From NCBI RefSeq assembly GCF_003435815.1, contig NZ_QTUV01000001.1, positions 386,581-450,580 on the forward strand: a DNA stretch of 64,000 nucleotides, in the 5' to 3' direction. Within the stretch, counting starts at the first letter, position 1. Each line of letters opens with the position of its first letter. This stretch comes from Dorea sp. AM10-31. GTDB taxonomy: Bacteria > Bacillota > Clostridia > Lachnospirales > Lachnospiraceae. Positions 28,177 to 59,700 of this stretch are shown in pieces. Made by a program: the position numbers and the translations under genes. Under the pieces are notes generated by a model that ran no database searches, was not told where the DNA came from, and was given only the letters and a program-made list of their open reading frames with translations.

Positions 28177-28371
28177 ATGATTACCGTAACAAAAAAAGAC
28201 CTCATAGCACTAGGTTATGGAACTTCTTTCTCGGCAGACATCATAAGAAAAGCAAAAAAACTTATGATTGAAAAAGGGCATACTTATTACCAATCCCGTA
28301 AATTGGACAGAGTACCCAAAGAAGCCGTGGAAGAATTATTAGGGATTACATTATCAGACACAAACGATTGA
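28177..28371 (+). CDS. DUF3173 protein, excisionase-like
   Basis: 64 aa from the ATG at 28177, with AAAGGAGG upstream (a longer frame from 28162 lacks this). MITVTKKDLIALGYGTSFSA is the DUF3173 signature; the rest (KKLMIEKGHTYYQSRKLDRVPKEAVEELLG) is HTH-like. These proteins lie directly before tyrosine integrases of Gram-positive ICEs and probably act in excision. The integrase starts 35 bp downstream. Confidence 0.85.
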   Translation: MITVTKKDLIALGYGTSFSADIIRKAKKLMIEKGHTYYQSRKLDRVPKEAVEELLGITLSDTND

Positions 28372-28406
28372 TTGTACTTCTTGCATATCATGTAAGGAGT
28401 GAAATT

Positions 28407-42991: not shown

Positions 42992-44098
42992 TTGATAAGA
43001 CCTGACACTACGAAATACCGCTTACTGGAAATGATAGGGATGTGCGGGGAATTTCCCGCAGACCAGCTAAACAGACTCATCCCAAGTGCCTCCTATGCGG
43101 AAAAACTCATTACGGATTTGAAGGCGGAACACCTCATCCGTACCCACTACCGGGATGCTCTCAGAGGCTACCGTCTTACAAAAGCTGCGAAAGAAATGCT
43201 GTTATCTGTCTCGCCGTTACGCTTCCAGTGCTATCTGACCGGCAATACCGAGACGAACCTCATCCGAAGTGAAGTATCCCGACGTATCCGCTTACATCAG
43301 AAAGCCGAAACGTATCTGACACTCCTTCATGCCGGGATTCCCTTTTATCCGGATGTAAAACCTGACATCTTCTGTAATCACCGCGAAGCTGGTTCCATCG
43401 GTATGCGAAGCCTTCCTCTTTTTTACGCTTCCAGAGAAATTAAGGAACTAGGCCCGGAGACCACGAAGATTAGGAACTCCCGCAGCATGGGCATCCTGAT
43501 GGCACCGCAATGTGTCTATGTCCTTTACAACACGGGAAACGGAGTCCTGAAATGGGAATATCGAACGGAAGTCCGCTTAAACGCCTTCCTGCAGCATTAC
43601 CTGCAAGGCTACCCTTACAACGGACATCCACAGATCCGGGCAATCATGACCGGAACCGACATGGAAATGGCTTTCCGGCTGTTTACCAGTACAGGAGGCT
43701 ACAAAAAGAGCCTGTTTATGCTGGACACTTCCTTCGAGCATTTCCATTACCTTCCCAATACTCCGGAAGGGGAAGTGCTTTTAAAACTGCTGGTTCACCC
43801 TGAGATCATGGAAAAGCTGGACAACCTCCTGCTGTCCGATCTGGGCTGCCGCAACGATTCAATTCCACTGGAACATGATGCCACGGATGCTTCCGGGAAC
43901 CCCATCCTTCTTGCTTATGATTTTGACATGCAGCGAATCAACCGGTTCAATACCGGCTTAAATGTATACGGCAGATCCGGGAACCTGATCTGTTTCGATT
44001 TTCAGATTCCGGTCCTGAAAAAATACTTAACTGCCACAATCCATTTCTCCAGTATTGACCTTTGCAAATTCAAAAGGGGGTTTTTACATGAACCGTAA
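42992..44098 (+). CDS. ICE winged-helix protein (replication-relaxation-like)
   Basis: 368 aa from a TTG start with GAGGTG 8 nt upstream. The N-terminal ~75 residues are a wHTH (YRLLEMIGMCGEFPADQLNRLI, IRTHYRDALRGYRLTKAAKEM); the rest is mixed alpha/beta (VLYNTGNGVLKWEYRTEVRLN). The arrangement resembles replication-relaxation proteins that precede VirD4 genes in such elements. The stop overlaps the VirD4 start by 11 nt. Confidence 0.65.
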   Translation: MIRPDTTKYRLLEMIGMCGEFPADQLNRLIPSASYAEKLITDLKAEHLIRTHYRDALRGYRLTKAAKEMLLSVSPLRFQCYLTGNTETNLIRSEVSRRIRLHQKAETYLTLLHAGIPFYPDVKPDIFCNHREAGSIGMRSLPLFYASREIKELGPETTKIRNSRSMGILMAPQCVYVLYNTGNGVLKWEYRTEVRLNAFLQHYLQGYPYNGHPQIRAIMTGTDMEMAFRLFTSTGGYKKSLFMLDTSFEHFHYLPNTPEGEVLLKLLVHPEIMEKLDNLLLSDLGCRNDSIPLEHDATDASGNPILLAYDFDMQRINRFNTGLNVYGRSGNLICFDFQIPVLKKYLTATIHFSSIDLCKFKRGFLHEP

Positions 44099-46058
44099 AT
44101 GGTGGAAGCTCATTTATATGCTTCCGATCACCTTCTGCACCCTCTATGCAGGAGGCTATGTTGCTCAATTTATCCGCAACTATCAGACCTGGGAATCTGC
44201 CGGCAATTTTGCTGGAAACGGAACTGCCCCGCAGATTCCCTCCCCGCACCCGCTCGCCTGTCTGGATGCCCTGACTGCTTTCCCGTACAATCTGTATGGG
44301 ATTTTTCTATGTCTGGCAGCTTTTGGACTCCTGACCTTCCTTCTCATGCGTATGGGATTTGACCGAAACGGGGAAATAACAGACCGGGACCGGAACCTGA
44401 ATTATTCCACAAAGGGAACCTATGGGACTTCCGGTTTTATGACTTTGGAGGAAATGCATCAGGTACTGGAGCTTACGAATGATGTCAAGAAACACAAGGG
44501 AACCATTCTTGGAAAACTGAACGGAAAAGCCGTTTGTCTCCCGAAGGATACCCGCATGAACCGGAATATTGCCGTTTACGGTGCCAGCGGTTCCATGAAA
44601 AGCCGGGCCTTTGCACGCAACATGATCTTCCAGTGTGTTGCCCGCGGGGAAAGCCTCATCATCACCGATCCAAAATCGGAATTGTACGAAAGTACAGCCA
44701 CTTACCTTGAGAATGCCGGATATATCGTGAAATCCTTTAATCTTGTAAACCCGGAAAACTCGGATAGCTGGAATTGTCTGGGTGAAATTGGCGGACAGGA
44801 AACCATGGCACAAGTATTTGCTGATGTCATCATCCAGAATACCGGTTCTGCCAAAGGCGATCACTTCTGGGACAATGCCGAGATGAACTTATTAAAAGCT
44901 CTGATTCTCTATGTGGATCAGGGATTCCCACCGGAGGCAAAGAATATCGGACAGGTATACAAACTCCTGACCATGAGTTCTGAAAAAGAACTGAACAGCC
45001 TCTTTGACCTGCTTCCGGTCTCCCATCCGGCAAAAGTCCCCTACTGCATCTATAAGCAGGCAAGTGACACGGTACGTTCCGGCGTCATCATCGGACTCGG
45101 TTCCAGACTTCAGGTATTCCAGAACAAGCTGATCCGCCAAATCACTTCCTATGATGAGATCAACCTGACGCTGCCGGGAAAAGAAAAATGTGCATACTTC
45201 TGCATCACTTCGGATCAAGACAGCACTTTTGATTTTCTTTCTTCCCTGTTTATGACCTTCGTATTTATCAAACTGGTCCGTTATGCAGACACCTATGGGG
45301 AAGATGGAAAACTGCCGGTTCCGGTACATATCCTGGCTGATGAGCTGGCGAATACGGGAGCAATCCTATCGCTCAACAAAAAGATTTCCGTGATCCGAAG
45401 TCGAAACCTCAGTATTTCCTGCATTTTCCAGAACCTGCCTCAGATGCAGAACCGGTATCCCTTAAACCAATGGCAGGAAATCATCGGGAACTGCGACACT
45501 CAGCTATTTTTAGGCTGTACGGATGAGGTAACTGCTACATTTATCTCTAACCGCTCCGGTGATGTGACCGTTGGTGTCAGCAGCGAAGCCAAACAATTAA
45601 ATAGCTGGAGGGTATCCGATTATACACCAGAATACCGCCAGACCAGATCCATCGGGAAACGAAAGCTCTTAACTCCGGATGAGATCCTACGCCTGCCTCT
45701 GGATACCGCACTGATTATCCTGCGTGGCCAGAAAGTCCTGCAGGTAGAAAAATACGATTACACCCTGCACCCGGATGCCAAAAAACTCATTTCCCGGAAG
45801 GCTTCCGAGCATATTCCGGAATGGAGAAAAGGAGCATGTAGTGAAGAATATACGTACACTCCAACTATTCCTGCTTCCCACCCGAAAAAAACCGCTTCTT
45901 ATGGAAAGCAGAAAAAGAAAAAAGCTGAGCCTCTCTTTGACCAGCAAAGCGTTTATCAGGAACCTGGCTATCACGATTTCCCGGATGACTTCTCAGCAGA
46001 TAACTATCCGGATCACACAGACATGGTTCCTTTAGATAAAGATTCTATCATGTCATAA
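44088..46058 (+). CDS. virD4: VirD4/TraG-type coupling protein
   Basis: 656 aa from the ATG at 44088 (AAAGGGGG upstream). Two N-terminal membrane segments (~8-30 and ~60-85), Walker A GASGSMKSR (~165, Met in place of the usual Gly), IITDPKSELYE, and Walker B HILADELANTG (~418). The C-terminal ~70 residues are charged. It hands the relaxase-DNA complex to the T4SS and could also mobilize the MobV element next door. Confidence 0.92.
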   Translation: MNRKWWKLIYMLPITFCTLYAGGYVAQFIRNYQTWESAGNFAGNGTAPQIPSPHPLACLDALTAFPYNLYGIFLCLAAFGLLTFLLMRMGFDRNGEITDRDRNLNYSTKGTYGTSGFMTLEEMHQVLELTNDVKKHKGTILGKLNGKAVCLPKDTRMNRNIAVYGASGSMKSRAFARNMIFQCVARGESLIITDPKSELYESTATYLENAGYIVKSFNLVNPENSDSWNCLGEIGGQETMAQVFADVIIQNTGSAKGDHFWDNAEMNLLKALILYVDQGFPPEAKNIGQVYKLLTMSSEKELNSLFDLLPVSHPAKVPYCIYKQASDTVRSGVIIGLGSRLQVFQNKLIRQITSYDEINLTLPGKEKCAYFCITSDQDSTFDFLSSLFMTFVFIKLVRYADTYGEDGKLPVPVHILADELANTGAILSLNKKISVIRSRNLSISCIFQNLPQMQNRYPLNQWQEIIGNCDTQLFLGCTDEVTATFISNRSGDVTVGVSSEAKQLNSWRVSDYTPEYRQTRSIGKRKLLTPDEILRLPLDTALIILRGQKVLQVEKYDYTLHPDAKKLISRKASEHIPEWRKGACSEEYTYTPTIPASHPKKTASYGKQKKKKAEPLFDQQSVYQEPGYHDFPDDFSADNYPDHTDMVPLDKDSIMS

Positions 46059-46074
46059 TTTGAAAGGAGACACT

Positions 46075-47001
46075 ATGATGCCAAACGAAACAACCAACAC
46101 ATCTATTTTAACTCTGGATTCCGATGCAAAGCTGGAAACAGCCCAGTCCATTTCAGACCTTACCTGGCATGAGATCCAGAATGCCTACCGTACCCGCCGT
46201 ATCTTAACCGGAATGCTTGGCGGTATCGAGAAAACAGAAAACGGCAGCCTCATTGCCGTGGTTTACTACAAAGATTTCCGTGCTGTCATCCCGGTAACTG
46301 AGATGATGATTCATCTCATGCAGGATGAAGCACACGATTATGGGGAGCTTGCTCTGCGGCAGAACAAAATCCTCAACAATATGCTTGGATGTGAGATTGA
46401 TTTTCTGATTAAAGGATTGGATTCCAAAACACGCAGCATTGTTGCCAGCCGCAAAGAAGCGATGCTAAAGAAACGCCAGATTTTCTATCTGGATAAAGAC
46501 GCAAACGGAATGCCAAAGGTCTATGAAGACCGTATCGTACAGGCAAGAGTCATTGCCGTTGCTGAAAAAGTAGTCCGTGCTGAAATTTTCGGTGTGGAAA
46601 CCTCCATTCTTGCCAGAGATTTGTCTTTTGACTGGATGGGCGATGCTAGAGAACGCTTTCAGGTGGGCGACCACATCCTGGTACGCATCCTGGATGTGGA
46701 GGCTGACTCACCAGAGCAGATTACGGTTCACGTAGATGTAAAAAGCGTGGAAGGTAATACCAGCAAAGAGAATATGAAAAAATGTAAGATTCAGGGAAAA
46801 TACGCCGGAACTGTGGAAGACATCCATAAAGGCACCGTCTTTGTCCGGCTCTCCATCGGTGTCAATGCCATTGCTCACTCCTGCTATGACAGCCGGACAG
46901 TCGGGAAAAAGGATCAGGTATCCTTTGTGGTGACGCATATTGATGAGGAACGGAACGTTGCCCTCGGCATCATCACCCGCATCATCAAGCAGACCATTTA
47001 A
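46075..47001 (+). CDS. ICE protein with C-terminal S1 RNA-binding domain
   Basis: 308 aa from the ATG at 46075, 5 nt after AAAGGAG. Residues ~15-215 are unassigned alpha/beta; ~230-305 read as an OB-fold S1 domain (GKYAGTVEDIHKGTVFVRL, AHSCYDSRTVGKKDQVSFVV). Such proteins follow virD4 in many clostridial ICEs and may bind RNA or ssDNA during transfer or control. It is the last + strand gene before the cargo block. Confidence 0.75.
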   Translation: MMPNETTNTSILTLDSDAKLETAQSISDLTWHEIQNAYRTRRILTGMLGGIEKTENGSLIAVVYYKDFRAVIPVTEMMIHLMQDEAHDYGELALRQNKILNNMLGCEIDFLIKGLDSKTRSIVASRKEAMLKKRQIFYLDKDANGMPKVYEDRIVQARVIAVAEKVVRAEIFGVETSILARDLSFDWMGDARERFQVGDHILVRILDVEADSPEQITVHVDVKSVEGNTSKENMKKCKIQGKYAGTVEDIHKGTVFVRLSIGVNAIAHSCYDSRTVGKKDQVSFVVTHIDEERNVALGIITRIIKQTI

Positions 47002-47010
47002 AATTATAGG

Positions 47011-47039
47011 TTGTTCCATAAAAAGGAACGTGGTATACT
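47011..47039 (+). promoter_or_regulatory. Promoter of type I toxin mRNA
   Basis: TTGTTC-17-TATACT; predicted start ~47046, 68 nt before the toxin ATG. Confidence 0.75.
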
Positions 47040-47113
47040 GATTCGGTATTATTGAACTGGAAAGACGGATGCATTTCGATTTTGCCCTCTAGTATCCAAG
47101 GAGGGTGATGCCC

Positions 47114-47194
47114 ATGAATACAATGGAAGTATTGACTTTACTATTGGTAATTTTTGCGGCTTTGACTTATATAGATCGACATAATAAGAAATAG
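47114..47194 (+). CDS. Type I toxin, holin-like membrane peptide
   Basis: 26 aa, MNTMEVLTLLLVIFAALT then YIDRHNKK: one transmembrane helix with a short charged tail, as in the putative holin-like toxin/Fst-TxpA group. AAGGAGG lies 9 nt upstream of the ATG at 47114, and that ribosome site is buried in a stem (CCCTC 47085-47089 with GAGGG 47101-47105, flanked by GCAT/ATGC), a usual brake on such toxins. An antisense RNA is encoded opposite its 3' end. Confidence 0.85.
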   Translation: MNTMEVLTLLLVIFAALTYIDRHNKK

Positions 47195-47291
47195 CATCCA
47201 CGACCCTAGGAAAGTTTTGGATGCTATGACTTATACATAGAATATAAAATTTAACTGAGGGCATCAGATTTTGCATCTGAATACCTTTCTT
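47185..47291 (-). ncRNA. Antisense RNA antitoxin of the type I system
   Basis: Starts at ~47291 from a strong minus-strand promoter and ends at a perfect 9-bp stem TAGCATCCA/TGGATGCTA (47192-47226) followed by TTTCTTATT. It overlaps the toxin's last codons and 3' UTR by ~100 nt, the convergent layout of txpA/ratA-type systems. Confidence 0.8.
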
Positions 47292-47297
47292 GAGTTC

Positions 47298-47326
47298 ATT
47301 ATACACTGGGGGATTTGAGAAATCAA
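47298..47326 (-). promoter_or_regulatory. Promoter of the antisense antitoxin RNA
   Basis: Minus strand TTGATT (47326-47321), 17-bp spacer, TATAAT (47303-47298). Confidence 0.85.
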
Positions 47327-47340
47327 GTCCCCCTTTTATT
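47308..47340 (+). terminator. Terminator of the toxin mRNA
   Basis: GGGGGATTTGA pairs with TCAAGTCCCCC around a 4-nt loop, followed by TTTTATTTT. It overlaps the antitoxin promoter, so the toxin transcript would span the whole antisense RNA. Confidence 0.8.
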
Positions 47341-47698
47341 TTAATCTCTGCATCGGATACCTTTTCAGGAATGTATCAATCCACTTCTGATTCACCCCAT
47401 TTAGTACACCAAGCCCGGATAATAGCTGCATACAGTCAAGATATCCCTGCACATAACTGAAAAGCTCCGTCTGATATCCCCAATGCTCGTAGGCATTATA
47501 ATGCTCCTCAAACAGATCTGCCATTTCAGCATTCACATTCCGGAGTGCTTCCACTGCCTCATCAAACTTCTTTTCCAGTTCGCCGCATACACTTCTGCCT
47601 TCCTCAAACACCGGATTCTGCTCCCGCAGCCTTGTTCTGGTCGGCTCCATCAGTTCCATTGCACTCTGCATCAAAAGTTCCATCATCTCTTCATTCAT
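47336..47698 (-). CDS. Helical protein of unknown function
   Basis: 120 aa. It starts MNEEMMELLMQSAMELM and contains a long charged helix (VCGELEKKFDEAVEALRNVNAEMADLFEEHYNAYEHW) and the closing pattern YVQGYLDCMQLLSGLGVL, seen in small clostridial ICE proteins of unnamed families. No ribosome site stands out (GAAAAATG context). It ends at the terminator of the toxin mRNA. Role unknown. Confidence 0.55.
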   Translation of the reverse strand: MNEEMMELLMQSAMELMEPTRTRLREQNPVFEEGRSVCGELEKKFDEAVEALRNVNAEMADLFEEHYNAYEHWGYQTELFSYVQGYLDCMQLLSGLGVLNGVNQKWIDTFLKRYPMQRLK

Positions 47699-47811
47699 TT
47701 TTCAGATACCTCTCTTTGCTTTTTCATTTGCCGTTGGCATAAATAAAGCATAGCAAATATCTGCTTTTCTGAAAACGATGTGACAGTTCCTACGATGATA
47801 GATTATAGTTC

Positions 47812-48219
47812 CTATTCTCCTGCCTGCTTACCAAAGAACAACTCTCTATGCGGATGCAGCGCATCTGCATGATAAATGTTGATCCGGTGCTCATCCCCAC
47901 TCCGGTCTTTAAACGCCGGAAACAGGAACCCATATTCCGGTTTCCCCGGCTCATAATCTCCTGAAACCGGACAGATGGCGCACATAAGGAACGGATAGAC
48001 TTCCTCCGATTCCCACAGCTCTGCTTTATCACTCGCCATTGCGATTGCCAGATTTCTCGTCTGATCTGAAGCAGATAATTTCAGGAAATGTGTATTGAAT
48101 GTTCCATCCACAAATCCTTCCTCATCCATGTATGCTCCGGCAATCCTGCTGAAACAGTTTCTCTTGATTGTCATACGTCTAGTCAGTTCCAGCATATCTT
48201 CTCTGTTAATTTTTCCCAT
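47812..48219 (-). CDS. Short DUF4317-like protein
   Basis: 135 aa from the ATG at 48219 (GAGGAAG upstream). INREDMLELTRRMTIKRNCFSRIAGAYMD and VYPFLMCAICPVSGDY, YGFLFPAFKDRSGDEH match the start, middle and end of DUF4317 proteins, which are usually ~350-400 aa, so this is a compact version lacking the central region. Function unknown. It is 12 nt downstream of the next gene and probably co-transcribed. Confidence 0.65.
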   Translation of the reverse strand: MGKINREDMLELTRRMTIKRNCFSRIAGAYMDEEGFVDGTFNTHFLKLSASDQTRNLAIAMASDKAELWESEEVYPFLMCAICPVSGDYEPGKPEYGFLFPAFKDRSGDEHRINIYHADALHPHRELFFGKQAGE

Positions 48220-48230
48220 ATTCTTCCTCG

Positions 48231-48647
48231 CTACCCATCTAAGCACGCATTATAAAAAGAGGTAAAATCCCCGTCAAATTCCATTTCAATAATATGTAGG
48301 CTGTCCATTGTGTGCTCCAGATAAGTCAGTGTTCCTCTGTCCAAATCTATACTCGGCTTTCCCAGTGAGTTCGCTATTACATCTGGATTTGTAATTCCAA
48401 ACATCTCCTTTATATCCGGCATAAGATAATCCACGATATCCGGAAGCCTTTTTTCATACACCTGTGCCAGTTCAACTGCACGTTTTTTATAATCTGAATG
48501 TATCCTGTTGCATGTAAATTCAATTCCGTTTATTTCCATCTTATAGTAATCATTATTCTCATCATAGACAAACGCTGTACCCTTACTTTTTTTATTTTTT
48601 TCCAAAATCCCCATGATATATCTACACTTTCCCGGTTCTTCCGCCAT
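48231..48647 (-). CDS. Protein of unknown function
   Basis: 138 aa if started at the ATG at 48647 (MAEEPGKCRY); the frame extends to 48695 but that part overlaps the preceding pseudogene, and no strong ribosome site marks any start. The text GTAFVYDENNDYYKMEINGIEF and LPDIVDYLMPDIKEMFGI with an acidic C-terminus suggests a small alpha/beta protein. It precedes the DUF4317-like gene. Confidence 0.5.
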   Translation of the reverse strand: MAEEPGKCRYIMGILEKNKKSKGTAFVYDENNDYYKMEINGIEFTCNRIHSDYKKRAVELAQVYEKRLPDIVDYLMPDIKEMFGITNPDVIANSLGKPSIDLDRGTLTYLEHTMDSLHIIEMEFDGDFTSFYNACLDG

Positions 48648-48669
48648 ACACAGTCTAAAAAACTGTAAC

Positions 48670-48890
48670 TTAATGCTTACGTTTGTATAAAACAATTCCT
48701 GCTAAAATCAACAAAGTAATACCAATTACAATCAGAAAACTAAAACTATCCCGTTCAATTTCCCTGCTATGTAAATAGAAGTCGGACCATCCGCACCGCC
48801 TATCACGGATACTGCCGCATTTTCTTTCTGCTTCAGTACAATGCCAATGACAGCCAATACAATTCCTAAAATTCCTGCTATGATTCCCAA
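48670..48890 (-). pseudogene. Frameshifted small membrane protein with IGGADGPTSI motif
   Basis: One frame encodes a membrane helix (GIIAGILGIVLAVIGIVLKQ) and SVIGGADGPTSIYIAGKLN, then stops; a second frame resumes with DSFSFLIVIGITLLILAGIV and ends YKRKH. Together they make a plausible two-helix protein of ~70 aa broken by one or two 1-nt shifts, and no good start codon is in frame. IGGADGPT is the signature loop of Na+-translocating decarboxylase beta subunits, also seen in orphan small membrane proteins. Confidence 0.5.
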
Positions 48891-48950
48891 ACATTTTTAT
48901 GTAACTACCTTCTCCTCAAATCACATACTTCTTTACGGGAAGAATACATG

Positions 48951-49805
48951 TCATAAAATGTATGAATATATTAACTCCATTATTTTTTCTATTCCCATAT
49001 CCTCTTTGTCATCACTATCCTGATTTATATGTTCTTCAAATTTTTTACATATTCTCAGATGTTCCATATATGCTTCATCTGACAGTTCACCTCCTTCAGA
49101 TATTACCAAAGTTAAATATTCCACAAGATCCTTAAAATTCTCAACAACTCCTAAAAGAATAGTAAATAACACTTGAAGATCAACCCCTGTATTAGGAATT
49201 ATCGACTCTCGCCCACTCATATTTTTCTTCTGCCATTGTTTTTCCTCACCTAACGGTGCATTATAAAACTGATATTCACCATTTCTTCCAAATGAATATC
49301 TCGCAAAATCAAAATGTGCATTTACACGTTTTAATTCCTCGATCAGTACGCTCAATTCTGATAGTGCGATTTCTATTGATTTGTTCATATTTAGTCTACT
49401 CAATTCACACTTTAAAATATTTAAATACTCATAAATACCGTGATTATTTTTTAATTTCTCTCCAGAATGAATAAGAAAATGAATTGCATTTATACTACTT
49501 TTCAGCCACAATTCTACGCCATGCCATACGTCAAATAAAATAGGAAAAACAAGCATATCTGCCACACAATAACGATTTCTATTATACAAAATTGAATACA
49601 GCCCTAATACTGCATTGGCCATATATGCTTTGCCCATTTCAAAATTATCATTTATAGTTTGAACCGGATTACTTTTATCATTTCCCCCCATAGCGTCATC
49701 AAAACACCAGTTCAAAAAAGCATAATTATTTGATTGATTATAATTTATCTCGTCTTCACTACAAAAAATTTTCATTTCATTATTCTTCTCCACTCTATTG
49801 GTCAT
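48951..49805 (-). CDS. All-helical protein paired with the Ntn-hydrolase (HEPN-like?)
   Basis: 284 aa from the ATG at 49805, 7 nt after GGAGGGG. Mostly alpha-helical: GKAYMANAVLGLYSILYNRNRYCVADMLVFPILFDVWHGVELWLKSSI reads like the paired helices of HEPN/AbiU2-type proteins (HGVELWLK), but no Rx4-6H ribonuclease motif is clear. It ends with an acidic C-terminus. It starts 28 bp after the Ntn-hydrolase-like gene, so the two form a likely operon and complex. Function unknown. Confidence 0.6.
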   Translation of the reverse strand: MTNRVEKNNEMKIFCSEDEINYNQSNNYAFLNWCFDDAMGGNDKSNPVQTINDNFEMGKAYMANAVLGLYSILYNRNRYCVADMLVFPILFDVWHGVELWLKSSINAIHFLIHSGEKLKNNHGIYEYLNILKCELSRLNMNKSIEIALSELSVLIEELKRVNAHFDFARYSFGRNGEYQFYNAPLGEEKQWQKKNMSGRESIIPNTGVDLQVLFTILLGVVENFKDLVEYLTLVISEGGELSDEAYMEHLRICKKFEEHINQDSDDKEDMGIEKIMELIYSYIL

Positions 49806-49832
49806 ATCTATCCCCTCCACAAAATAGAATTT

Positions 49833-50681
49833 TTATATACTTCTCAATTCATCATGTTCTTCAATCTTATTACATGGATTAGTTCGTAGCGTGACTGGAT
49901 CTATAAACCAATATTTTGTATCTTCATAGTCAAATAACCTTCTTCCTAATAATGTGCGATTTGAAAACATATCTTTCTTTTCTGGCCAGTATACTCCCAC
50001 AGGGCGACAATTCATATACTGATACGACTTGATCATCTGCGGAGCTCCTCCTATTGTATCTCTTTTATCTGTTTTTTGAAGCATTCTGCATAATGCTTCA
50101 AAAGGCTCCATATCTAAAACAATCCCTTTTTGTTTCTCGATATCGTTTCCATACTTTTTCCTTAATAAATCCCTTAATTCTCTTTTAAAATTTTCTCTCT
50201 GATCACCAATTGCCACAAAGTTGCCACTCACACTAGATATTATTCTATGGTTCTTTCCGTCCTTTGCAAAAGACTTATCATGTTTATCATAATAATATCT
50301 CCAAATTTTAAATTTCTTCTCCACCCACGAATATCCTCCAAAAACGAATTCATTATCGGGAACATAATTTGGATCAGCCAAATCATACACTGAATTCATT
50401 AGATGATTTGCATGATTTAAAAGGTGTCCATTAATATCGGTTATATCCATTGCCCGTGTTTCTATTCTTGTATATCCCGTCATTGCCTGCCTAATTTGCA
50501 TCATCATTGGATATGCATATTCAGTATCTCCTGCAAACGCTAGTGCACATGTATTTCCCGGCAAAGTTGTAAGTTTTGGACACTCGTCCCAGCGATGTCC
50601 TCCACATAATCTACTATCAGAAATAAAAATTAATTCTTCACAATTATGAATTTTTCTCACCCACGATGCCGCTATTGTCAT
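49833..50681 (-). CDS. Proteasome/HslV-like Ntn-hydrolase
   Basis: 282 aa. MTIAASWVRK would expose Thr1 after Met removal, the nucleophile position of proteasome beta/HslV subunits. FISDSRLCGG provides the Asp equivalent to D17, CPKLTTL the Lys equivalent to K33, and LAFAGDTEYAYPMM the conserved Gly-rich segment before the helix pair. A C-terminal extension (~190-282) is not found in HslV. No HslU/ClpX-type ATPase is adjacent. The partner gene follows directly. It may be a protease or amidase in a cargo/defence operon; this is inference. Confidence 0.65.
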   Translation of the reverse strand: MTIAASWVRKIHNCEELIFISDSRLCGGHRWDECPKLTTLPGNTCALAFAGDTEYAYPMMMQIRQAMTGYTRIETRAMDITDINGHLLNHANHLMNSVYDLADPNYVPDNEFVFGGYSWVEKKFKIWRYYYDKHDKSFAKDGKNHRIISSVSGNFVAIGDQRENFKRELRDLLRKKYGNDIEKQKGIVLDMEPFEALCRMLQKTDKRDTIGGAPQMIKSYQYMNCRPVGVYWPEKKDMFSNRTLLGRRLFDYEDTKYWFIDPVTLRTNPCNKIEEHDELRSI

Positions 50682-50762
50682 TGCTTTTCCTCCATCAACT
50701 TCAAATTTTTCTAATACATAAAACCTACTTACATTATACTCCTCCCCAATTCAAATCACAAT

Positions 50763-51476
50763 TTATTCCCCAGCCTTTTTCCCGTTCACAAGCTTCGGAC
50801 AGTAAAACGCCTGGATCTTCATAGTCTCCTCATCTGATTCAATTTCCACATAATAATCCCGGATAAAGTATCCCGCATTATGCTCCTGAAGGGCGTACAG
50901 CTCCAATGTCTGAAAATCCACCAGTACCAGATCACGTGGCTTTGGCTTTTGTGTTTCCTCACAGAATACTTCCATGCTTTCCACCAGCTTATCCAGACAT
51001 TCCTGACACAGATGGTTCTGTACTTTTTTCACATCGAAGATACTATCTTCCCCGTAATCCACCGATACTTCGGAAATCCCGTAATCCGACATCTGCTCCG
51101 TATGGAAAAAGCAGCCGCCTTCTCCTGTCCCGGTATAACCCATATGCCCGTTTCCCTGCGGGCCGGTAAGATTCCCGTCTTCATCGTGATTCCGTATATG
51201 CATATCCATCACATACCATTGATTGGTACAGATGACTCCAAGATCATCAAACTTCCGAAAATATCCCATCATGCTCCGTTCATGACTCCCACACAGCCAG
51301 CACTGCTTGGGATCTTTCAGCTTGCTTTCTACTAATTCAGGCACCTTTCTTTCTACCGGGTGATATTCCTGCTCCTGTGTTTTTTCAAGATAACCTGTCA
51401 GATCCAGCCGGCTGATTCCCAGTCCGATCAGAATTCCTGCCGCACATGCCAATAATCCCACATATCCCTTTTTCAT
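50763..51476 (-). CDS. Membrane-anchored protein with Cys-pair domain, unknown function
   Basis: 237 aa. Signal-anchor helix at ~4-22 (YVGLLACAAGILIGLGI), then an extracellular part with CWLCGSHERSMMGY and HLCQECLDKL, two CxxC pairs that may bind zinc or form disulfides, and a strand-rich C-terminus. No family is recognised. It is transcribed with the other minus-strand cargo genes but separated from the Ntn-hydrolase gene by ~80 bp. Confidence 0.6.
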   Translation of the reverse strand: MKKGYVGLLACAAGILIGLGISRLDLTGYLEKTQEQEYHPVERKVPELVESKLKDPKQCWLCGSHERSMMGYFRKFDDLGVICTNQWYVMDMHIRNHDEDGNLTGPQGNGHMGYTGTGEGGCFFHTEQMSDYGISEVSVDYGEDSIFDVKKVQNHLCQECLDKLVESMEVFCEETQKPKPRDLVLVDFQTLELYALQEHNAGYFIRDYYVEIESDEETMKIQAFYCPKLVNGKKAGE

Positions 51477-51631
51477 ATCATAGTCATCCTTTAAGAATTA
51501 GTTTTATAATGCTTTTAGGATTACTATATCAAATCTTGCAATCACTTTCATCATAAATCGCATATTTTTATGTGTTTTATTGCATATACAACTTTCAAAA
51601 AAACTGCCTGCGGCAATTTCGCAGACAGCTT

Positions 51632-51952
51632 CTATTTCATCATCTCTTCAATTATCACATCCAGCATCCGAAGCACGCTTTCCTGCTTCTTCGGTGTGAG
51701 CCCTTCCAGCTTTCCTTCCACTACAGAAGTATGTTCCATTCTGGTAAGAGGAATCACTTCCTTCAGCACTTCATTCGGTTCCGCACCTAATACATTCAAC
51801 AGCTTTACAAATGTTTCCATCGTAGGTGTTTTCACTTCCCGCTCAATCGCACCCAGATGGTTGGTACTGATATCCACCAGTTCAGCCAGTTTCTCCTGCG
51901 TAATTCCTGCCTCTTCCCTGTACCTGCGGATTGCCTTTCCCATTCCTTTCAC
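51632..51952 (-). CDS. Cro/CI-type HTH regulator of the cargo/ICE
   Basis: About 106 aa; the start is ambiguous between GTG codons at 51958 and 51952 and the ATG at 51943, all behind AAGGAGGAGG; 51952 has the best spacing. HTH_3: IRRYREEAGITQEKLAELVDI and NHLGAIEREVKTPTMETFVKL. It sits ~170 bp upstream of, and divergent to, promoter P2 of the T4SS operon, so it may be the TTACCC-binding regulator (inference). Confidence 0.82.
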   Translation of the reverse strand: MKGMGKAIRRYREEAGITQEKLAELVDISTNHLGAIEREVKTPTMETFVKLLNVLGAEPNEVLKEVIPLTRMEHTSVVEGKLEGLTPKKQESVLRMLDVIIEEMMK

Positions 51953-52125
51953 ACGCACACCTCCTCCTTCCAGTATTCACTAACGCTTAAAGCATTAGTC
52001 ATGTAAATCCAGTATAATTGGTTGCAAATCACGCTTACAGTATCCATAAGGATTGCATTTACAACGCTTTTAGCGTTGGTCACGTTTTTGGCACTCCATC
52101 GTCTGTAACTGGCACATTCCTGCGA

Positions 52126-52154
52126 TTGTAGCGGTAATTTACCCATGTTAAAAT
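52126..52154 (+). promoter_or_regulatory. T4SS operon promoter P2
   Basis: TTGTAG-17-TAAAAT with CTGCGA just upstream and TTACCCATG in the spacer, closely matching P1 at 41431. Confidence 0.75.
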
Positions 52155-52182
52155 TGATATTGTCAAAATTATATGCAGAAGG

Positions 52183-52364
52183 AAACGCAGCACTGCCTTA
52201 TGGGAAGCCTCTCCTGCGGCAAATAAGCTGCGTTTTTTCTGTAAGATAGGAGGATCTTTACAATTTCATACTTTGATTTAGGACGCAGCCTGCATTGACC
52301 GGGCTGCGTCCTTTCTTGAGGCAGGAAAACCATAAGCAAAGGCAGGGGAGGTAATTCTCCTGCC
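52183..52364 (+). promoter_or_regulatory. Leader with three successive hairpins before the T4SS operon
   Basis: AAACGCAGC/GCTGCGTTT with T-run (52183-52238, terminator-like), GGACGCAGCC/GGCTGCGTCC with TTTCTT (52281-52311), and GGCAGGGGAG/CTCCTGCC (52341-52364). Hairpins 1 and 2 both carry the ACGCAGC/GCTGCGT core, so alternative pairing between them is possible. No gene lies in 51959-52391. Confidence 0.65.
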
Positions 52365-52391
52365 GCTCTTATAAAAAGGAGGTATCTTTAC

Positions 52392-52769
52392 GTGAAACAC
52401 AAACTGAAAAACGCTCCGCCGGACACAAAACGGCATGTCAATTATGGCAGATGCCTGTATGCTGCATTTCTGGCTGTCACAGTCCTCTGCGGATATACAC
52501 AGCCGGTTTTTGCCGCTACCATCTGGACCAAAGCCAATGAGATCATGAAGGATGTCTATAACCAGATTATCCTCATTTCCACCATTGCTGCAGTCGTAAC
52601 GGCATCGGTTGCCCTTCTGATGATGAATTTTTCCAAAAGCGGAAAAACCGTGGACGAATCACGTGCATGGCTCAAGCGTATCGTCATTACCTGGGCGATC
52701 TTAAACGGGCTTGGCTTTATCATGGCTTACATCACCCCGTTCTTTGCAGGCGGAAAATGGAACGGATAG
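52392..52769 (+). CDS. Pilin-like T4SS subunit (VirB2/TrbC type)
   Basis: 125 aa from a GTG after AAAAAGGAGG. A signal peptide ends near PVFAATIW, followed by two hydrophobic helices (IILISTIAAVVTASVALLMM and VITWAILNGLGFIMAYI) around a charged loop, the VirB2/TrbC layout. It leads the transfer operon. Confidence 0.75.
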   Translation: MKHKLKNAPPDTKRHVNYGRCLYAAFLAVTVLCGYTQPVFAATIWTKANEIMKDVYNQIILISTIAAVVTASVALLMMNFSKSGKTVDESRAWLKRIVITWAILNGLGFIMAYITPFFAGGKWNG

Positions 52770-52787
52770 ACGAAAGGAGATGCCACT

Positions 52788-53498
52788 ATGGGAATACTTG
52801 ACGGAATCGTGGAATGGATTGCCGAACAGGTCATGAACATTCTGGATCTGATCACCACTTCAGTCCTCGGTGCTCTGGGCTGTTCCATGGATACGTTTCT
52901 TCGCTACTTTCCTGCAGCCGAGACCATGTATCAGGTCTTTCTGGCACTGGGCATCGGGCTGATCCTCTTAAACTGGGTATGGCAGCTCTTTAAAAATTAC
53001 TTTATGGGAGCCGGTATCGAAGCGGAAGATCCCATTAAGCTGTCCATCCGTTCCTTCCTCTTTATCTTTCTCACCTTCTATGCGAAAGATATTGTGGATC
53101 TGCTCCTGAAGATTTCAGGAACACCGTACAACTGGATTTTGACGGAAGACCTGCCGCCTTTAAAATTTGCGGATTTTAACTCCGTAGTCACAGTCATCCT
53201 AGGAGTCTGTGCAAATGGGGCGGTAGCCATCATTGCACTGATTCTGGTACTGATTCTGGCGTGGAACTACATCAAGCTGCTCTTTGAAGCGGCAGAACGT
53301 TATATTCTTCTGGGGGTACTGGTCTACACAGCCCCGGCAGCTTTTTCCATGGGTGCCAGCCAGTCAACTGGAAATATCTTCAAAAGCTGGTGCCGGATGC
53401 TTGGCGGCCAGTTCTTTTTGCTGCTGATGAATGCGTGGTGCCTGCGGCTGTTTACTTCTATGGTCGGCACCTTCCTTGCCAATCCGTTATCCCTATAA
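52788..53498 (+). CDS. T4SS channel membrane protein (VirB6/TrbL-like)
   Basis: 236 aa, five to six hydrophobic segments, e.g. VFLALGIGLILLNWVWQLF and VAIIALILVLILAWNYIKLL, and the TrbL-like stretch AAERYILLGVLVYTAPAAF. It starts 18 bp after the pilin gene with GAAAGGAG. It forms part of the inner-membrane transfer channel. Confidence 0.8.
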   Translation: MGILDGIVEWIAEQVMNILDLITTSVLGALGCSMDTFLRYFPAAETMYQVFLALGIGLILLNWVWQLFKNYFMGAGIEAEDPIKLSIRSFLFIFLTFYAKDIVDLLLKISGTPYNWILTEDLPPLKFADFNSVVTVILGVCANGAVAIIALILVLILAWNYIKLLFEAAERYILLGVLVYTAPAAFSMGASQSTGNIFKSWCRMLGGQFFLLLMNAWCLRLFTSMVGTFLANPLSL

Positions 53499-53513
53499 GA
53501 AAGGAGGACCAAA

Positions 53514-54422
53514 ATGAAACTTAGAAAGAAACTCATACCATTCCTGGTATTAACTGCCTGTCTGGTACTGTTTTGCTCCATGCCGGTCTTTGCAGCGGAG
53601 CTTACGGAAGCAGACGTGGAAGCGGCAGTTGCCAGTCAGGGAAAGGAGGCGGTAACCGGAAATGTCTTCGTCTGGTTCCTGTGTGCCATTGCCTTTTTAA
53701 AGGTATCCCAGAAAATTGATTCTTTTCTGGCATCGCTTGGCATCAATGTCGGCAATACCGGAGGAAACATGATGGCTGAACTTCTGATTGCAGGACGGAG
53801 CCTGACCGGTTCCATGCGTTCCCATGGTGGTGGCGGCTACCGCAAAGCCTCTTCTCCCGGAAGTGCGGCTGTCGCAGGAAGCTTCCTATCCGGCGGGCTT
53901 GCCGGAGCAGTGGGAAGACAGGTACAAAGGGAAGCGGTCAATTCCGCAACCGGTTATACCGAACACAGCAGTATCGGGAACATGCTTTACCAATCATCCC
54001 TGAACAAAGGCGGAGACTTTGCCAATCAGGTCATCAGCAACATTGCACAGGGAAATTACGGTCAGGTGGGTTCCATCAAGGGAGCAGACGCACAGAAAGC
54101 CTTTACTTCCTATATGGGCATCAAGCCGGGCGGCGGTTCTTCCTATGATAATGTAGAAATCGGCGGCGGACGGATCACCGGTACCGAAACCGGAAGTTCC
54201 GGGAACCGGGATTTTGCCCTGTACCATGCCGACCAGTATGCAGCTCCGACTCAGGGCTCCTACTCTACGGTACAGTCCGTGGACGGTTCCACCTGGTACA
54301 AGCAGTATGCACAGGATACGGTCGAAAAAACACCATATACTTCCGGCAGCGGCAAAGTAGCCTACAATGAATCCATTGTCCAGAAACTACCGCCAGCCCC
54401 ACAGCGAAAGGAGCGTATGTAA
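53514..54422 (+). CDS. T4SS-associated exported/membrane protein
   Basis: 302 aa. An N-terminal signal segment (KKLIPFLVLTACLVLFCSMPVFAAE), one helix at ~45-60 (VFVWFLCAIAFLKVSQ), then a Gly/Ser-rich soluble tail with little predicted order. It lies between the TrbL-like and hydrolase genes in the same operon. Its ATG follows AAAGGAGG. No named family is recognised; similar Gly-rich proteins follow TrbL in these ICEs. Confidence 0.65.
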   Translation: MKLRKKLIPFLVLTACLVLFCSMPVFAAELTEADVEAAVASQGKEAVTGNVFVWFLCAIAFLKVSQKIDSFLASLGINVGNTGGNMMAELLIAGRSLTGSMRSHGGGGYRKASSPGSAAVAGSFLSGGLAGAVGRQVQREAVNSATGYTEHSSIGNMLYQSSLNKGGDFANQVISNIAQGNYGQVGSIKGADAQKAFTSYMGIKPGGGSSYDNVEIGGGRITGTETGSSGNRDFALYHADQYAAPTQGSYSTVQSVDGSTWYKQYAQDTVEKTPYTSGSGKVAYNESIVQKLPPAPQRKERM

Positions 54423-54423
54423 C

Positions 54424-56115
54424 ATGCCAAAAACAGCCTTGATGGGCAGTCCTCTTGCTGTCATCGGTACAGTATTCCGGCACAGGCGCACCCTTGCGAA
54501 AACCGGAGCAGCCGTCGGCGGTGTACTGATGCTTCCCATGCTGTTCCTTGTCATGCTTCCGGGACTCGTCTTCGGAGACCTCTCTGAAAATACCGGAGCA
54601 CTGACCAGCAACACGGTAATCAGTGAAAATATCCGGGCTTCCAATCAGGCAATCGTGGAGGTGCTTCAGGAAAGCCATGATGCACTGCTTGCTAAGATCA
54701 ATGCGGAAATTGCCAGACTCCCGGAAGGAGATACTGCCTCTATCAGCGATCCTTACGCTTCCAGTATCATCGTAAATGCGAACCAGCTCATCGCACAGTT
54801 TTGTGCCAGCCAGGATGACTATAAAAATATAAATATCAGCAAACTCAAAAGCCTTATCCGGGAAAACGAGGACGGGCTTTTTTCTTATGACGTTACTTCA
54901 GAAACGGTCACGGTGGAAGTTCCGGCAGAAGAGGAAAATGCACCACCCAGAAAGGTTACTTTTACCCGCCATACCTACACGGTCAGCTATGCCGGAGATG
55001 CCTACTTTGCAGATCACGTCTTTCATCTGACCGATAAGCAGAAAAAAACGGCAGACAGTTATGTGGAAAACCTGACCATGTTCTTTGGCTGCTCCGCTTC
55101 CGGTCTTGCCATGGCGGTGGGTGTCAGCGATGAGGTGCTGGCTTACCGGGCTACCATCCAGCAGGTCGCACAGAAATATGGCATGGAAGCTTATGTGGAA
55201 CTCCTCATGGCAGTCATGATGCAGGAAAGCGGCGGGCGTGGAAGCGATCCCATGCAGGCGGCAGAAGGCGGCTTTAATAAGAAATACCCCCATGTCCCCA
55301 ACGGCATCACCGATCCTGCTTATTCCATCGAATGTGGGATTCAGGAATTAAAGTATGCACTGGATAAAGCAGGATGTACCGGACCTACCGACCTGGACCG
55401 CATCAAGCTGGCGCTTCAGGGTTACAATTACGGCTCCGGCTATATCGACTGGGCAATGGAACGTGACGGCGGCTATACCAAAGAAAACGCCATTGCTTAT
55501 TCGGATATGATGTGTGCCCGTCCGAACTGGCATTATGACCGGTATGGGGACAAGGAATATGTGGAGCATGTTCTCCGGTATTATCAGATTACCAATACCG
55601 GCGGAAGCTATCCGGCAAATGGAATGCAGATTCCCCACTATCTCCAGACCGATTACGGAAACATCCCTTATGGCGGCGGCTCCATCGCATCTTCCGGATG
55701 CGGGCCTACCAGCTTTGCCATGATCGCCAGCTACCTGACCGGGAACACTATTACCCCTCCGGATGCAGTGGCATGGTGCGGGAATTCCTATTACAAGCCG
55801 GGAGTTGGAACCTACTGGAGCTACTTTCAGGCTGCAGCCAGTCATTTCGGCTGTGGCAGCGTCACACAGACCAGCAATGCCAATACGGTACTTCAGGCAC
55901 TCTCCGAAGGCCGTCCGGTCATCTCCTCTCAGCGGGCAGGACTTTTCACCAGCGGCGGGCACTTCATCGTGCTCCGGGGTGTTACGGCAAACGGCAAGGT
56001 ACTGGTCAATGATCCCAATGACAGTGACGCAAAGAACTATATTAACCGTGAATTTGATATGATGTCGGAAATCCATGCCACGGCAAATGCCTACTGGATC
56101 TTCGACAAAAAATAA
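54424..56115 (+). CDS. Conjugation cell-wall hydrolase: lysozyme-like plus C39-like peptidase
   Basis: 563 aa from the ATG at 54424 (GAAAGGAG; 2 nt after the previous stop). One N-terminal membrane helix (~30-48). Residues ~235-390: lysozyme-like domain (YGMEAYVELLMAVMMQESGGRG with catalytic Glu, LALQGYNYGSGY). Residues ~425-560: C39_2-type peptidase (GCGPTSFAMIASYLTG with catalytic Cys, GHFIVLRGV with His, NDPN with Asp). Opens peptidoglycan for the transfer channel, like Tn916 Orf14. Confidence 0.88.
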   Translation: MPKTALMGSPLAVIGTVFRHRRTLAKTGAAVGGVLMLPMLFLVMLPGLVFGDLSENTGALTSNTVISENIRASNQAIVEVLQESHDALLAKINAEIARLPEGDTASISDPYASSIIVNANQLIAQFCASQDDYKNINISKLKSLIRENEDGLFSYDVTSETVTVEVPAEEENAPPRKVTFTRHTYTVSYAGDAYFADHVFHLTDKQKKTADSYVENLTMFFGCSASGLAMAVGVSDEVLAYRATIQQVAQKYGMEAYVELLMAVMMQESGGRGSDPMQAAEGGFNKKYPHVPNGITDPAYSIECGIQELKYALDKAGCTGPTDLDRIKLALQGYNYGSGYIDWAMERDGGYTKENAIAYSDMMCARPNWHYDRYGDKEYVEHVLRYYQITNTGGSYPANGMQIPHYLQTDYGNIPYGGGSIASSGCGPTSFAMIASYLTGNTITPPDAVAWCGNSYYKPGVGTYWSYFQAAASHFGCGSVTQTSNANTVLQALSEGRPVISSQRAGLFTSGGHFIVLRGVTANGKVLVNDPNDSDAKNYINREFDMMSEIHATANAYWIFDKK

Positions 56116-56125
56116 AGGAGCCATT

Positions 56126-56746
56126 ATGAACAGAACAAAAGTGATTCTTTCCATTTTCCTAATGCTGTTTCTGCTGCTTGCCGGACTGGTTCTCCCCAGT
56201 TTCTGGAAAAGCCAGAAAAAAGAAGCTTCCGGAAACAAAGGCAGGGAACCGGCAAAGGAAACAACAGAAACAAATTCTGATACCCCCATGCCGGAATATC
56301 TGGATTTTGATGCTTTAAAAGCATTTTTCTCCGACAGCCAGATTGCTTCTCTCAAAGAGCAGTTTCCTGTCTACCTAAAAGAGTATGTCAAAAAAGAACA
56401 GACAAGCATCACCTTCCTGCCGGAAAAAACCAGCTACCCTACCGAAACAACCGTCTGCCTGATGTTTTCACTTTCCGATCAGGATACGCTTCCGGTTACC
56501 TACCACACCCCGACGGGTGTGTTTTTATTTGGAGAAGACGGGGTACAGGTCTCTGCAGATACAACTGTTTACGAAAAACAGACAGATGATTCCCTGCCGT
56601 CCCAGACTTCGCAGGACATCGAACACCTGCAGGAAGGCGGGTATCCGGATACTTCTGACAGCCCGGAAGCTCCGGACACAGAATCCGGCAGTGCCTCTGT
56701 GCCTTCCAAAGATGCGAAAGATACGAAAAAGGAGGTGCAGCCATGA
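56126..56746 (+). CDS. Exported/anchored T4SS accessory protein
   Basis: 206 aa from the ATG at 56126 (AAAGGAG). A membrane anchor (VILSIFLMLFLLLAGLVLPSF), a central domain (DALKAFFSDSQIASLKEQF; strand-rich VCLMFSLSDQDTLPVTYHT) and a Ser/Glu/Asp-rich disordered tail. It overlaps the VirB4 gene by 4 nt. A wall-spanning or VirB8-like role is possible, but no family is assigned. Confidence 0.6.
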   Translation: MNRTKVILSIFLMLFLLLAGLVLPSFWKSQKKEASGNKGREPAKETTETNSDTPMPEYLDFDALKAFFSDSQIASLKEQFPVYLKEYVKKEQTSITFLPEKTSYPTETTVCLMFSLSDQDTLPVTYHTPTGVFLFGEDGVQVSADTTVYEKQTDDSLPSQTSQDIEHLQEGGYPDTSDSPEAPDTESGSASVPSKDAKDTKKEVQP

Positions 56747-59700
56747 CACAGCCAGAAGAAACACCGGTTTCCTTTATCCCGCCCAACTTCATTGAGAAAG
56801 GCAAGATCCTAAACGGAACTTTTGACATCCGCAATGCCATAGAAAGCATTGTTCTTTCCCTGGCAATTGGTATCCCTGTTTCCCACCTGCCGCTGTCCCT
56901 GACTGCCCGCATCATCATTCTCTGCATGACCGCACTTCCGGCGGCAATGGTAGCCCTGATTGGAATCGGCGGAGAGAGCATCACTGCCTTTCTGATGAAT
57001 GCCTTGCGTTTTGTAGTGAACCGCAGGGTAATCTGGAGGTCCGACAGTCTTCCGGAAGGAAAGCCACGCAGGAACCCACGTTCCAAAGAGCCAAAGACAA
57101 AGAAACACCGGAAAGCAGAAAAAACGGCAGAGCCTTCCAAAGTAATGGCATCGGCTCCCCCGCAGTCTGAACCGGACGCACCAGCCCCGCCAAAAAGTAA
57201 AAAAAAAGAACACCGACAGTTTGATACCTCCACCAAGCGGGGCATCAAAAAACAGGCAAAGGAAGATATCCGTTATCTAAAGTGGGAGCAGAAAGAAGCC
57301 AGCCGACAGAAAAAAGAGGCGGCGAAACAGATAAAAATCCAGAAAAAAACGGAAGCCCGGAGACGAAAGGAGGAAGAAAAACGGGCAGTTTCCGAAAATC
57401 GGGCGGCAAAAAAAGAGCAGAAAAAGAAGGTGGTTTCCAAGAAGGACGCCTCATCTGCCACGGCAAACCCCGTTTCCCGGAAAAAGCGAAAGAAAGACCA
57501 GACCTTGGAGGATTATCTTCCGGTGGAAAAAATCGAAAACGGGATCGTCTATACCACAGACGGACGGTACGTGAAGATCCTGGAGATTGAACCAATCAAC
57601 TTCCTGCTTCGAAGTGCCAGAGAACAGCAGGGCATCATTTACAGCTTTATCAGCTACTTAAAGATCAGCCCGGTCAAACTCCAGATCAAGATGATCTCCA
57701 AAAAAGCAGACATCAATAAGCATTTGGAGCAGTCCCGGCTGGAGCTGGAGCGGGAAACCGATCCTCATTGTCAGGAGCTGCAGCGTGACTACATCCAGTT
57801 TGTCCAGAACTTAAGTTCCAGAGAAGCAGTATCCAGACGGTTCTTTCTGATTTTTGAGTATGAACCCTTCAATGCCAACCGGAAGGAGGAGGAACGGGAA
57901 ATCCTTGCCGCCCTTGAGACGGCATCCCAGACTGCCAAAACCTTTCTGTACCAGTGCGGGAATGAAGTGGTCACCCATGACAATGAGGATGAATTTACCA
58001 CAGATGTCCTGTACACACTGTTAAACCGTACCCTTTGTACGGAGGTTCCGCTTCCGGACCGGATCAGCACTGTACTGTCCGCCTATACAAAGGAAAACCG
58101 CATGGAGGAACTGGATCACATCCGGATCAACGAGTTTCTCGCACCGGAAAGTGTGGATTTCAAGCACTCCCATTATGTGCAGATCAATGGGCTTTACCAT
58201 TCCTACCTGCTTGTGCCGTCTGACGGCTACAAAAACCGGGTAACTCCCGGATGGCTGTCACTCCTTGTCAATGCCGGGGAAGGGATTGATATTGATTTCT
58301 TTCTCCAGAAACAGCCAAAGGACAAGATCCAGCAGCGTCTCGGTCAGCAGATCCGTATCAACCGTTCCAAATTAAAGGATGCGTCCGATACCAACACTGA
58401 CTATGATGACCTGAATTCTGCCATCCGCTCCGGATATTTTCTGAAGCAGGGACTTGCCAACAACGAAGATTTCTATTACATGAATCTTCTCATCACCATT
58501 ACCGCTTCCACTCTGGAAGAACTGCAGTGGCGGATTCAGGAAATGAAAAAGCTCCTGATTTCGCAGGATATGAACTTACACTCCTGCTACTTTTTGCAGG
58601 AGCAGGGCTTTCTCTCCTCTCTGCCGCTGGCAAATCTGGACAAGAAGCTTTTTAAGCTGTCCAAGCGGAACGTACTGACTTCCGGGGCGGCAAGCTGCTA
58701 TCCCTTCGTCAGCTACAGTATCTGCGATGATAACGGAATCCTCTTTGGGGTAAACAAGCATAACAATTCCCTGGTCATTGCGGATATCTTTGATTCCAGG
58801 CAGTACAAGAACAGCAACATCTGTATCTTAGGCTGTTCGGGAGCAGGAAAGACCTTCACCATGCAGACCATGGCACTAAGGATGCGAAGAAAAGGCATCC
58901 AGGTGTTCATCATCGCTCCCCTAAAGGGACACGAATTTTACCGGGCTGCAAGGAATGTCGGCGGAGAATTTATCCAGATCTCCCCTGCCAGTAAAAACTG
59001 TATCAACATCATGGAAATCCGGAAGGTAGACAATTCTGTAAATGAACTTTTAGACGGACCGACCCTCGATGCCTCCGCACTGGCTGGCAAGATTCAAAGG
59101 CTTCACATCTTCTTCAGTCTGCTGATCCCGGATATGTCCCATGAGGAGAAGCAGCTTCTGGATGAAGCCCTGATCAAAACCTATGCCTTAAAAGGGATTA
59201 CACATAAAAATGAATCCCTGACAGATCCGCAGCATCCGGAGCAGTACAAAAAGATGCCCATTCTGGAGGATGTCTACAATGTCCTGCTGGAAAGCGAAGA
59301 TACGAAGCGTCTGGCGCACATCTTAAACCGGCTGGTTCATGGTTCTGCTTCTTCCTTTAACCAGCAGACCAATGTGGACCTGACCAATAAATATACGGTA
59401 CTGGATATCTCCGAACTGACCGGTTCCAGCGATCTTTTAACGGTCGGCATGTTCGTAGCCCTGGATTATGTCTGGGATAAAGCGAAGGAAAACCGTACCG
59501 AAGAAAAAGCCATCTTTGTCGATGAGGTCTGGCAGCTCATCGGTGCATCCAGCAACCGGCTTGCAGCGGAATTCGTACTGGAAATTGCCAAGATCATCCG
59601 GGCTTACTCCGGAGCCGGCATATTTGCCACACAGGATCTGAACGACTTCTTTGCTCTGGATGACGGGAAGTACGGCAAGGGTATCATCAATAACTGCAAG

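Follow-up and report, generated by a model that had tools for sequence, protein, structure and literature searches.

A mobile family of proteasome-fold hydrolases, possible defence-type cargo, with a member on a conjugative element of Dorea sp. AM10-31

The proteasome, HslV, Anbu and BPH are described as cellular proteases in the available excerpts of two papers (PMC5666114; PMC5777263). According to the same excerpts, the N-terminal threonine of Anbu is exposed by removal of the methionine alone (PMC5666114), a serine can replace this threonine in BPH (PMC5777263), and both proteins are inactive on standard substrates, their substrates and partners still lacking (PMC5666114; PMC5777263). The gene considered here, P1, encodes a predicted hydrolase of this fold and lies directly ahead of a second gene, P2, on an integrative and conjugative element (ICE) of Dorea sp. 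AM10-31. The window analysed is a 64,000-nucleotide stretch of contig NZ_QTUV01000001.1 (positions 386,581 to 450,580), for which a first-pass annotation had been made from the letters alone. The proposal that P1 represents a mobile family of proteasome-fold hydrolases, carried as defence-type cargo on ICEs, plasmids and prophages, has about an even chance of being correct as a whole.

P1 is almost certainly an N-terminal nucleophile (Ntn) hydrolase. The 282-residue protein has a threonine after the methionine, followed by the aspartate of ISDSR, the lysine of PKL and the segment FAGDTEYA, all present as the first-pass annotation had described. In an alignment of 124 sequences (the window copy, 26 loci and 97 proteins) residue 2 is T in 119, S in two and a gap in three, and D22, S23, R24, D32, K36 and G51 are each invariant (124/124). 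D22, K36 and G51 are the counterparts of Asp17, Lys33 and the oxyanion glycine of the proteasome and HslV, the register with HslV coming from a profile alignment. Structure prediction, proposed in the annotation as a check, gives the four-layer Ntn fold. Proteasome subunits rank first in a Foldseek search with this model (E ~1e-8), and the matches among the best 50 of 1000 chains (VIA structure list, one row per entry) are proteasome-type, which leaves room for other Ntn families. Predicted structure and alignment thus agree with the claim of a proteasome/HslV-like fold with threonine in the nucleophile place. The invariant residues and the Foldseek matches put the pattern beyond chance, and a chance open reading frame (ORF) is ruled out by 620 homologues.

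Since the threonine directly follows the start codon, removal of the methionine alone would expose it. A methionine aminopeptidase would take off Met1, leaving the threonine to act as the N-terminal nucleophile with help from D22 and K36, and G51 would sit at the oxyanion hole; the residues and the predicted fold are observed, and the chemistry is that expected from the family. By analogy of fold and residues this chemistry is likely to be proteolysis. P1 would then most likely cleave a protein and, in line with proposals for Anbu and BPH, do so with no AAA+ unfoldase dedicated to it. None of the seven window proteins near the pair scanned with Pfam matches such an unfoldase (the remaining ORFs of 45000-54500 were read by eye), and HslU was not seen near P1.

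A peptide-pattern search locates P1 at 18 loci among 84,980 species genomes. By organism name, the P1 carriers of all searches taken together fall in Bacillota, Balneolota, Bacteroidota, Planctomycetota, Myxococcota, Pseudomonadota, Actinomycetota and Cyanobacteria. P1 is also present in 8 of 72,556 plasmid records, five of them typed conjugative and one chromosome-sized (two further P1 queries return the same eight), and on four distinct viral contigs. Integrases and transposases are found close to P1 genes at other loci. The gene is broken across frames in four of 30 loci (L016, L021, L028 and L029). A copy at least 99% identical occurs in 126 of 5426 Escherichia coli genomes; these copies were rejected as working members, the two loci examined having P1 in two pieces (L021 15001-15831; L043 10001-10831). 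There the split gene adjoins an integrase near ypjA and looks like a decayed remnant.

A mobile, defence-type role is rather probable for P1. Its neighbours were sampled at 26 loci by taking the closest two ORFs on each side, which gave 96 of the 197 ORFs of 120 aa or more lying within 5 kb (L021 and L028 left out); the calls are mechanical, so that false ORFs of GC-rich loci are included and proteins above 1500 aa dropped. These 96 neighbours match 301 PADLOC families (E up to 1e-5) and a control of 74 neighbours of HslV, Anbu and proteasome genes matches four models, the counts being of families with overlapping models, not of proteins, and the contrast therefore no rate. Among the 25 PADLOC families listed, GajA, LeoA/LeoBC, Old and AriA models have two members each; sequence identifies the GajA-like proteins as those of L026 and L029, and LeoA is named in the record of L022. 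The control models are DolB (six members), PDC-M37B (four) and two CasR models (one each). Ten neighbours scanned singly include AbiJ (L001), PDC-M34A (L011), SpbK/ThsB-like (L015) and LmuA-like (L029) proteins and one marginal match (L009). Among 25 of the 92 Pfam families listed for the 96 neighbours, integrases occur in three proteins and Abi_C, dynamin and SEC-C in two each. Of 30 neighbours scanned singly, 16 lacked any Pfam match at E up to 0.01, and the matches of several more were weak. P1 and P2 themselves match no PADLOC family at E up to 1.

Such surroundings might also arise if P1 were ordinary mobile cargo, a housekeeping or metabolic hydrolase acting for example on small-molecule amides, its defence neighbours mirroring the accumulation of mobile genes. 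Ntn hydrolases include many non-proteolytic amidases, and integrases, transposases and cargo slots with many unrelated genes do accompany P1. However, the listed structure matches of P1 are proteasome-type, known defence genes are a repeated feature of P1 neighbourhoods but not of HslV/Anbu neighbourhoods, and divergent P1s are swapped in one prophage slot, so that this explanation appears improbable.

In this slot P1 adjoins a tail-terminator gene (L019, L099 and L100). Its opposite neighbour in L019 and L099 is a gp10-like gene (80% identical); the L100 contig stops at this point. The terminators are 70-71% and the tape measures 64-80% identical, whereas the P1 of L019 is just 34-36% identical to those of L099 and L100, which share 88%. 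The nearest P1 to that of L019 is L017 (61%), and the nearest to that of L099 is the Agrobacterium plasmid copy L026 (70%). Because their closest relatives differ, the slot was filled at least twice. Among the best 80 of 558 confirmed related loci (L103-L182), both flanks are present in 69, the interval measures 0.5-2.9 kb in 69/69, and the occupants are very diverse. P1 occupies one of the 69 (L103, same contig as L019). The interval of L114 encodes instead a relative (30% identity, E 5e-31) of the Abi_C protein that lies beside P1 in L003, and that of L173 has an ORF interpreted, from its FADD motif, as a reverse transcriptase. The tail-module interval is interpreted as a cargo slot, filled in some prophages by P1 and in others by genes of defence type, most occupants being of unassigned type; it looks like a promising place for undescribed defence genes. 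The placement of P1 in a tail module, with its potential for late expression, and on conjugative elements would likewise suit a P1 devoted to counter-defence or to the element's own regulation, which would break down a defence protein of the host or of a rival, or the repressor of the element itself. This is very unlikely, as P1 is also chromosomal beside complete defence genes and the scans made revealed no neighbour of antirestriction type.

Near several P1 genes lie HEPN genes, of families other than P2: an AbiJ/Abi_C gene 150 bp upstream (L001), a HEPN_Swt1 gene 294 bp upstream (L011), an Abi_C gene 808 bp downstream (L003) and a DUF4145 gene 5.5 kb away (L014). AbiJ, Swt1 and DUF4145 are counted among the HEPN families (PMC3710099). 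The motif R-x4-6-H is visible in the AbiJ protein of L001 and the Swt1-HEPN protein of L011. Across 18 P1 genomes Abi_C, which we take to be the HEPN domain of AbiJ, occurs twice, both times adjoining P1; Swt1-HEPN occurs twice, once adjoining P1; and DUF4145 occurs six times, once within 6 kb. The HEPN matches of the DUF4145 search in L007 and L018 do not adjoin P1. In sum four of ten lie near P1, against roughly 0.02 expected by random placement (6 kb per side, ~6 Mb; a rough estimate), a comparison that is partly post hoc, Abi_C and Swt1, unlike DUF4145, having been picked after being seen beside P1. The enrichment is far above random placement and is tempered by the general clustering of defence genes and by the later choice of two of the three families. 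The recurring context is P1 with defence genes at large, among which are several HEPN proteins from families other than that of P2. That these proteins form a new immunity class, in which N-terminal-threonine proteases of proteasome fold on mobile DNA execute or license anti-phage defence, repeatedly beside diverse HEPN proteins, is a tentative proposal, somewhat short of an even chance.

P2 had been called all-helical and HEPN-like at best. Its model is helix nearly throughout and aligns with HEPN chains across 120-138 residues, a match of helical bundles that calls for caution; the HEPN-like part of the claim is suggestive and the conserved RNase motif is absent. The best column pair for R-x4-6-H is found in only 3 of 42 P2 sequences, which rules out a canonical HEPN RNase. 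On the model a HEPN fold is nonetheless quite likely for P2. Lacking the usual RNase motif, P2 is unlikely to be a classical RNase toxin, and would rather act as a sensor, gate or substrate of P1. P2 was found in 1/99 and 1/391 genomes related to the window, both distant partial matches, and not in the viral contigs or phages searched. Marginal P2-like helical proteins with the motif H-S-[IL]-E-x-x-LK are encoded in L053 (4993-5664 and 5796-8750) and L054 (778-2010), one having a large membrane P-loop protein encoded immediately downstream and one containing two such stretches; they are possibly further defence modules.

In the window lineage the two genes are closely joined. Their spacer, given as 28 bp in the first-pass annotation, measures 27 bp, and a purine-rich ribosome-binding site precedes both; the short spacer with GGAGGGG suggests one transcript, for which the TATAAT box upstream of P1 is a putative promoter. 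In the ICE of G001, 392 bp carrying an unrelated ORF of 123 aa stand in place of the stretch holding the pair. Identity between the two elements is 91% immediately left of the pair and 97-98% farther left and on the right. Because the edges of the block hug both genes, the pair behaves as a single unit of cargo, judged from this one comparison. This exchange and the conjugative gene set bear out the earlier view of the pair as ICE cargo, on the strand opposite to the integrase, coupling protein and TraG-type ATPase genes.

The 27-bp spacing, the exchange as a single block, the HEPN-like fold of P2 and the R-x4-6-H proteins beside distant P1s (AbiJ at 150 bp, Swt1-HEPN at 294 bp) would fit a two-gene toxin-antitoxin or abortive-infection unit in this lineage, with P2 as toxin, freed on infection or destroyed in uninfected cells through cleavage by P1. 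Such a unit is unlikely: the conserved RNase motif is missing from P2, the HEPN neighbours of P1 come from differing families, and P1 lacks P2 in 30 of 30 other loci (L001-L024, L026-L029, L099 and L100, some on contigs ending near P1). As these P1s are distant from that of the window (~45% identity or less), homologues of the two genes are never adjacent among distant relatives, the outcome named in the annotation as one that would refute its pairing; the idea of a widespread two-gene system is not supported. P2 was also absent from 18 P1-bearing genomes, in a search without a positive control for P2, and a universal partnership is ruled out (0/30 loci, 0/18 genomes). P1-P2 fusions were rejected as well: a joined-sequence search gave 20 proteins, 18 aligning with P1 alone and two with P2 alone, the latter two carrying in addition a tail that is presumably a recombinase C-terminus. 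Functional coupling of P1 and P2 in the window lineage is as likely as not; this estimate and that for the HEPN fold take into account the caution over helical bundles and the single exchange comparison.

Returning to P1 as mobile defence-type cargo, in most lineages the protein alone would be the effector, blocking an incoming phage or element or arresting the cell, and in the window ICE it would probably be co-expressed with P2. Several points weigh against this proposal. The function is predicted throughout. Besides the missing P2 relatives and the nature of the PADLOC counts, five of the ten singly scanned neighbours, including the L003 Abi_C protein, have no PADLOC match, and many loci have no known defence gene. 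No neighbour family recurs between loci beyond integrases, GajA-like genes, group II introns and a few weak pairs, most rows of the neighbour-versus-neighbour BLAST being antisense reads of P1. P1 was found in none of 50,697 phage records and in 0/195 and 0/391 sampled relatives of the window, the search of these relatives being of a kind that recovered four of four known carriers. In a weak profile alignment, the IGD of P1 (D in 118/124) stands opposite IGS of HslV at the Ser129-type place beside Thr1, so that one accessory active-site residue seems changed.

The remaining features of the window are collected in Table 1. The helix-turn-helix (HTH) gene reported near the pair is real. For the type I toxin-antitoxin module reported there too, no supporting sign was seen, no search aimed at it having been made. 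A second swapped block corresponds to ~5.5 kb in G001 (L044), by eye two-component and ABC-transporter genes. The DUF4317-like ORF matches partially, in three stretches (E 1e-16), a model of 370 positions and is perhaps a remnant. A small ORF adjoining the pair is also present in the G001 element. The 1089-aa surface protein is encoded within the conjugative element, as though an adhesin travelled with the ICE.

Table 1. Coordinates of features in the window
Feature	Position	Strand	Remarks
P1	49833..50681	-	282 codons, intact ORF; ATG start, second codon Thr; predicted proteasome-beta/HslV/Anbu-fold Ntn hydrolase
P1 motif residues			ISDSR (D22), PKL (K36), FAGDTEYA (G51)
P2	48951..49805	-	284 codons; ATG at 49805; helical, predicted HEPN-like fold; no conserved R-x4-6-H
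P1/P2 spacer	49806..49832	-	27 bp; GGAGGGG ahead of P2
TATAAT box	50733..50738	-	upstream of P1; surrounding leader common to the G001 ICE, which is without the pair
Exchange block	48924..50696		exactly P1 and P2; edges are BLAST alignment ends, 27 bp outside P2 and 15 bp outside P1
Tyrosine integrase	28368-29597	+	
Coupling protein	44055-46058	+	
HTH gene	51632-51958		HTH_3 (Pfam)
Lysozyme/C39 protein	54367-56115	+	
TraG-type ATPase	56743-59940	+	
Second swapped block	47341-48270		
DUF4317-like ORF	47812-48246		144 aa
Small ORF	48732-48890		GGADGPTSI motif
Surface protein	59997-63266		1089 aa; TED_2 thioester, SpaA-type and T-Q ester bond domains (Pfam)

The first-pass annotation knew of no named system with this composition, and none appeared in the libraries or literature searched. 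The literature covered (few subscription papers) holds no work joining an Ntn hydrolase or proteasome/HslV with HEPN proteins, conflict systems, defense islands or an anti-phage role, and proteasome, Ntn and HslV are absent from the main text of the DefensePredictor paper (PMC13092281) and of PMC10799925. Anbu operon partners were recognised neither beside the pair nor among 25 of the 92 Pfam families listed for the 96 neighbours, no search by name having been made. P1 is taken to belong to an undescribed family of proteasome-fold hydrolases. If true, the proposal of an immune role would present a prokaryotic proteasome relative turned immune effector, a family with intact active-site pattern, on mobile DNA among defence genes, that ties proteasome chemistry to immunity. 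Among the described systems, the HEPN superfamily (AbiJ, AbiV, Swt1, HepT and DUF4145; PMC3710099) is the one with which the P2 model aligns, and other HEPN families stand beside other P1s. HslV (ClpQ) and the proteasome beta subunit (PF00227) differ from P1 in length and, for HslV, apparently in the IGS/IGD position, the C-terminus of P1 extending ~70 residues beyond the aligned core, and the Pfam Proteasome model gives no P1 row at E up to 1. Anbu (PDB 5nyw, 5nyj and 5lox; PMC5666114, in excerpt) aligns with P1 in hhalign at just E 0.002 and a probability of 13%; unlike Anbu, P1 is mobile and has its own signatures, FGGYSW, MEPFE and IGGAPQ. BPH, in the available excerpt of its description (PMC5777263), resembles P1 in having no known unfoldase and in accepting a serine for the N-terminal threonine, as in two of the 124 P1 sequences; it is described there as a descendant of HslV, and P1 is longer and mobile.
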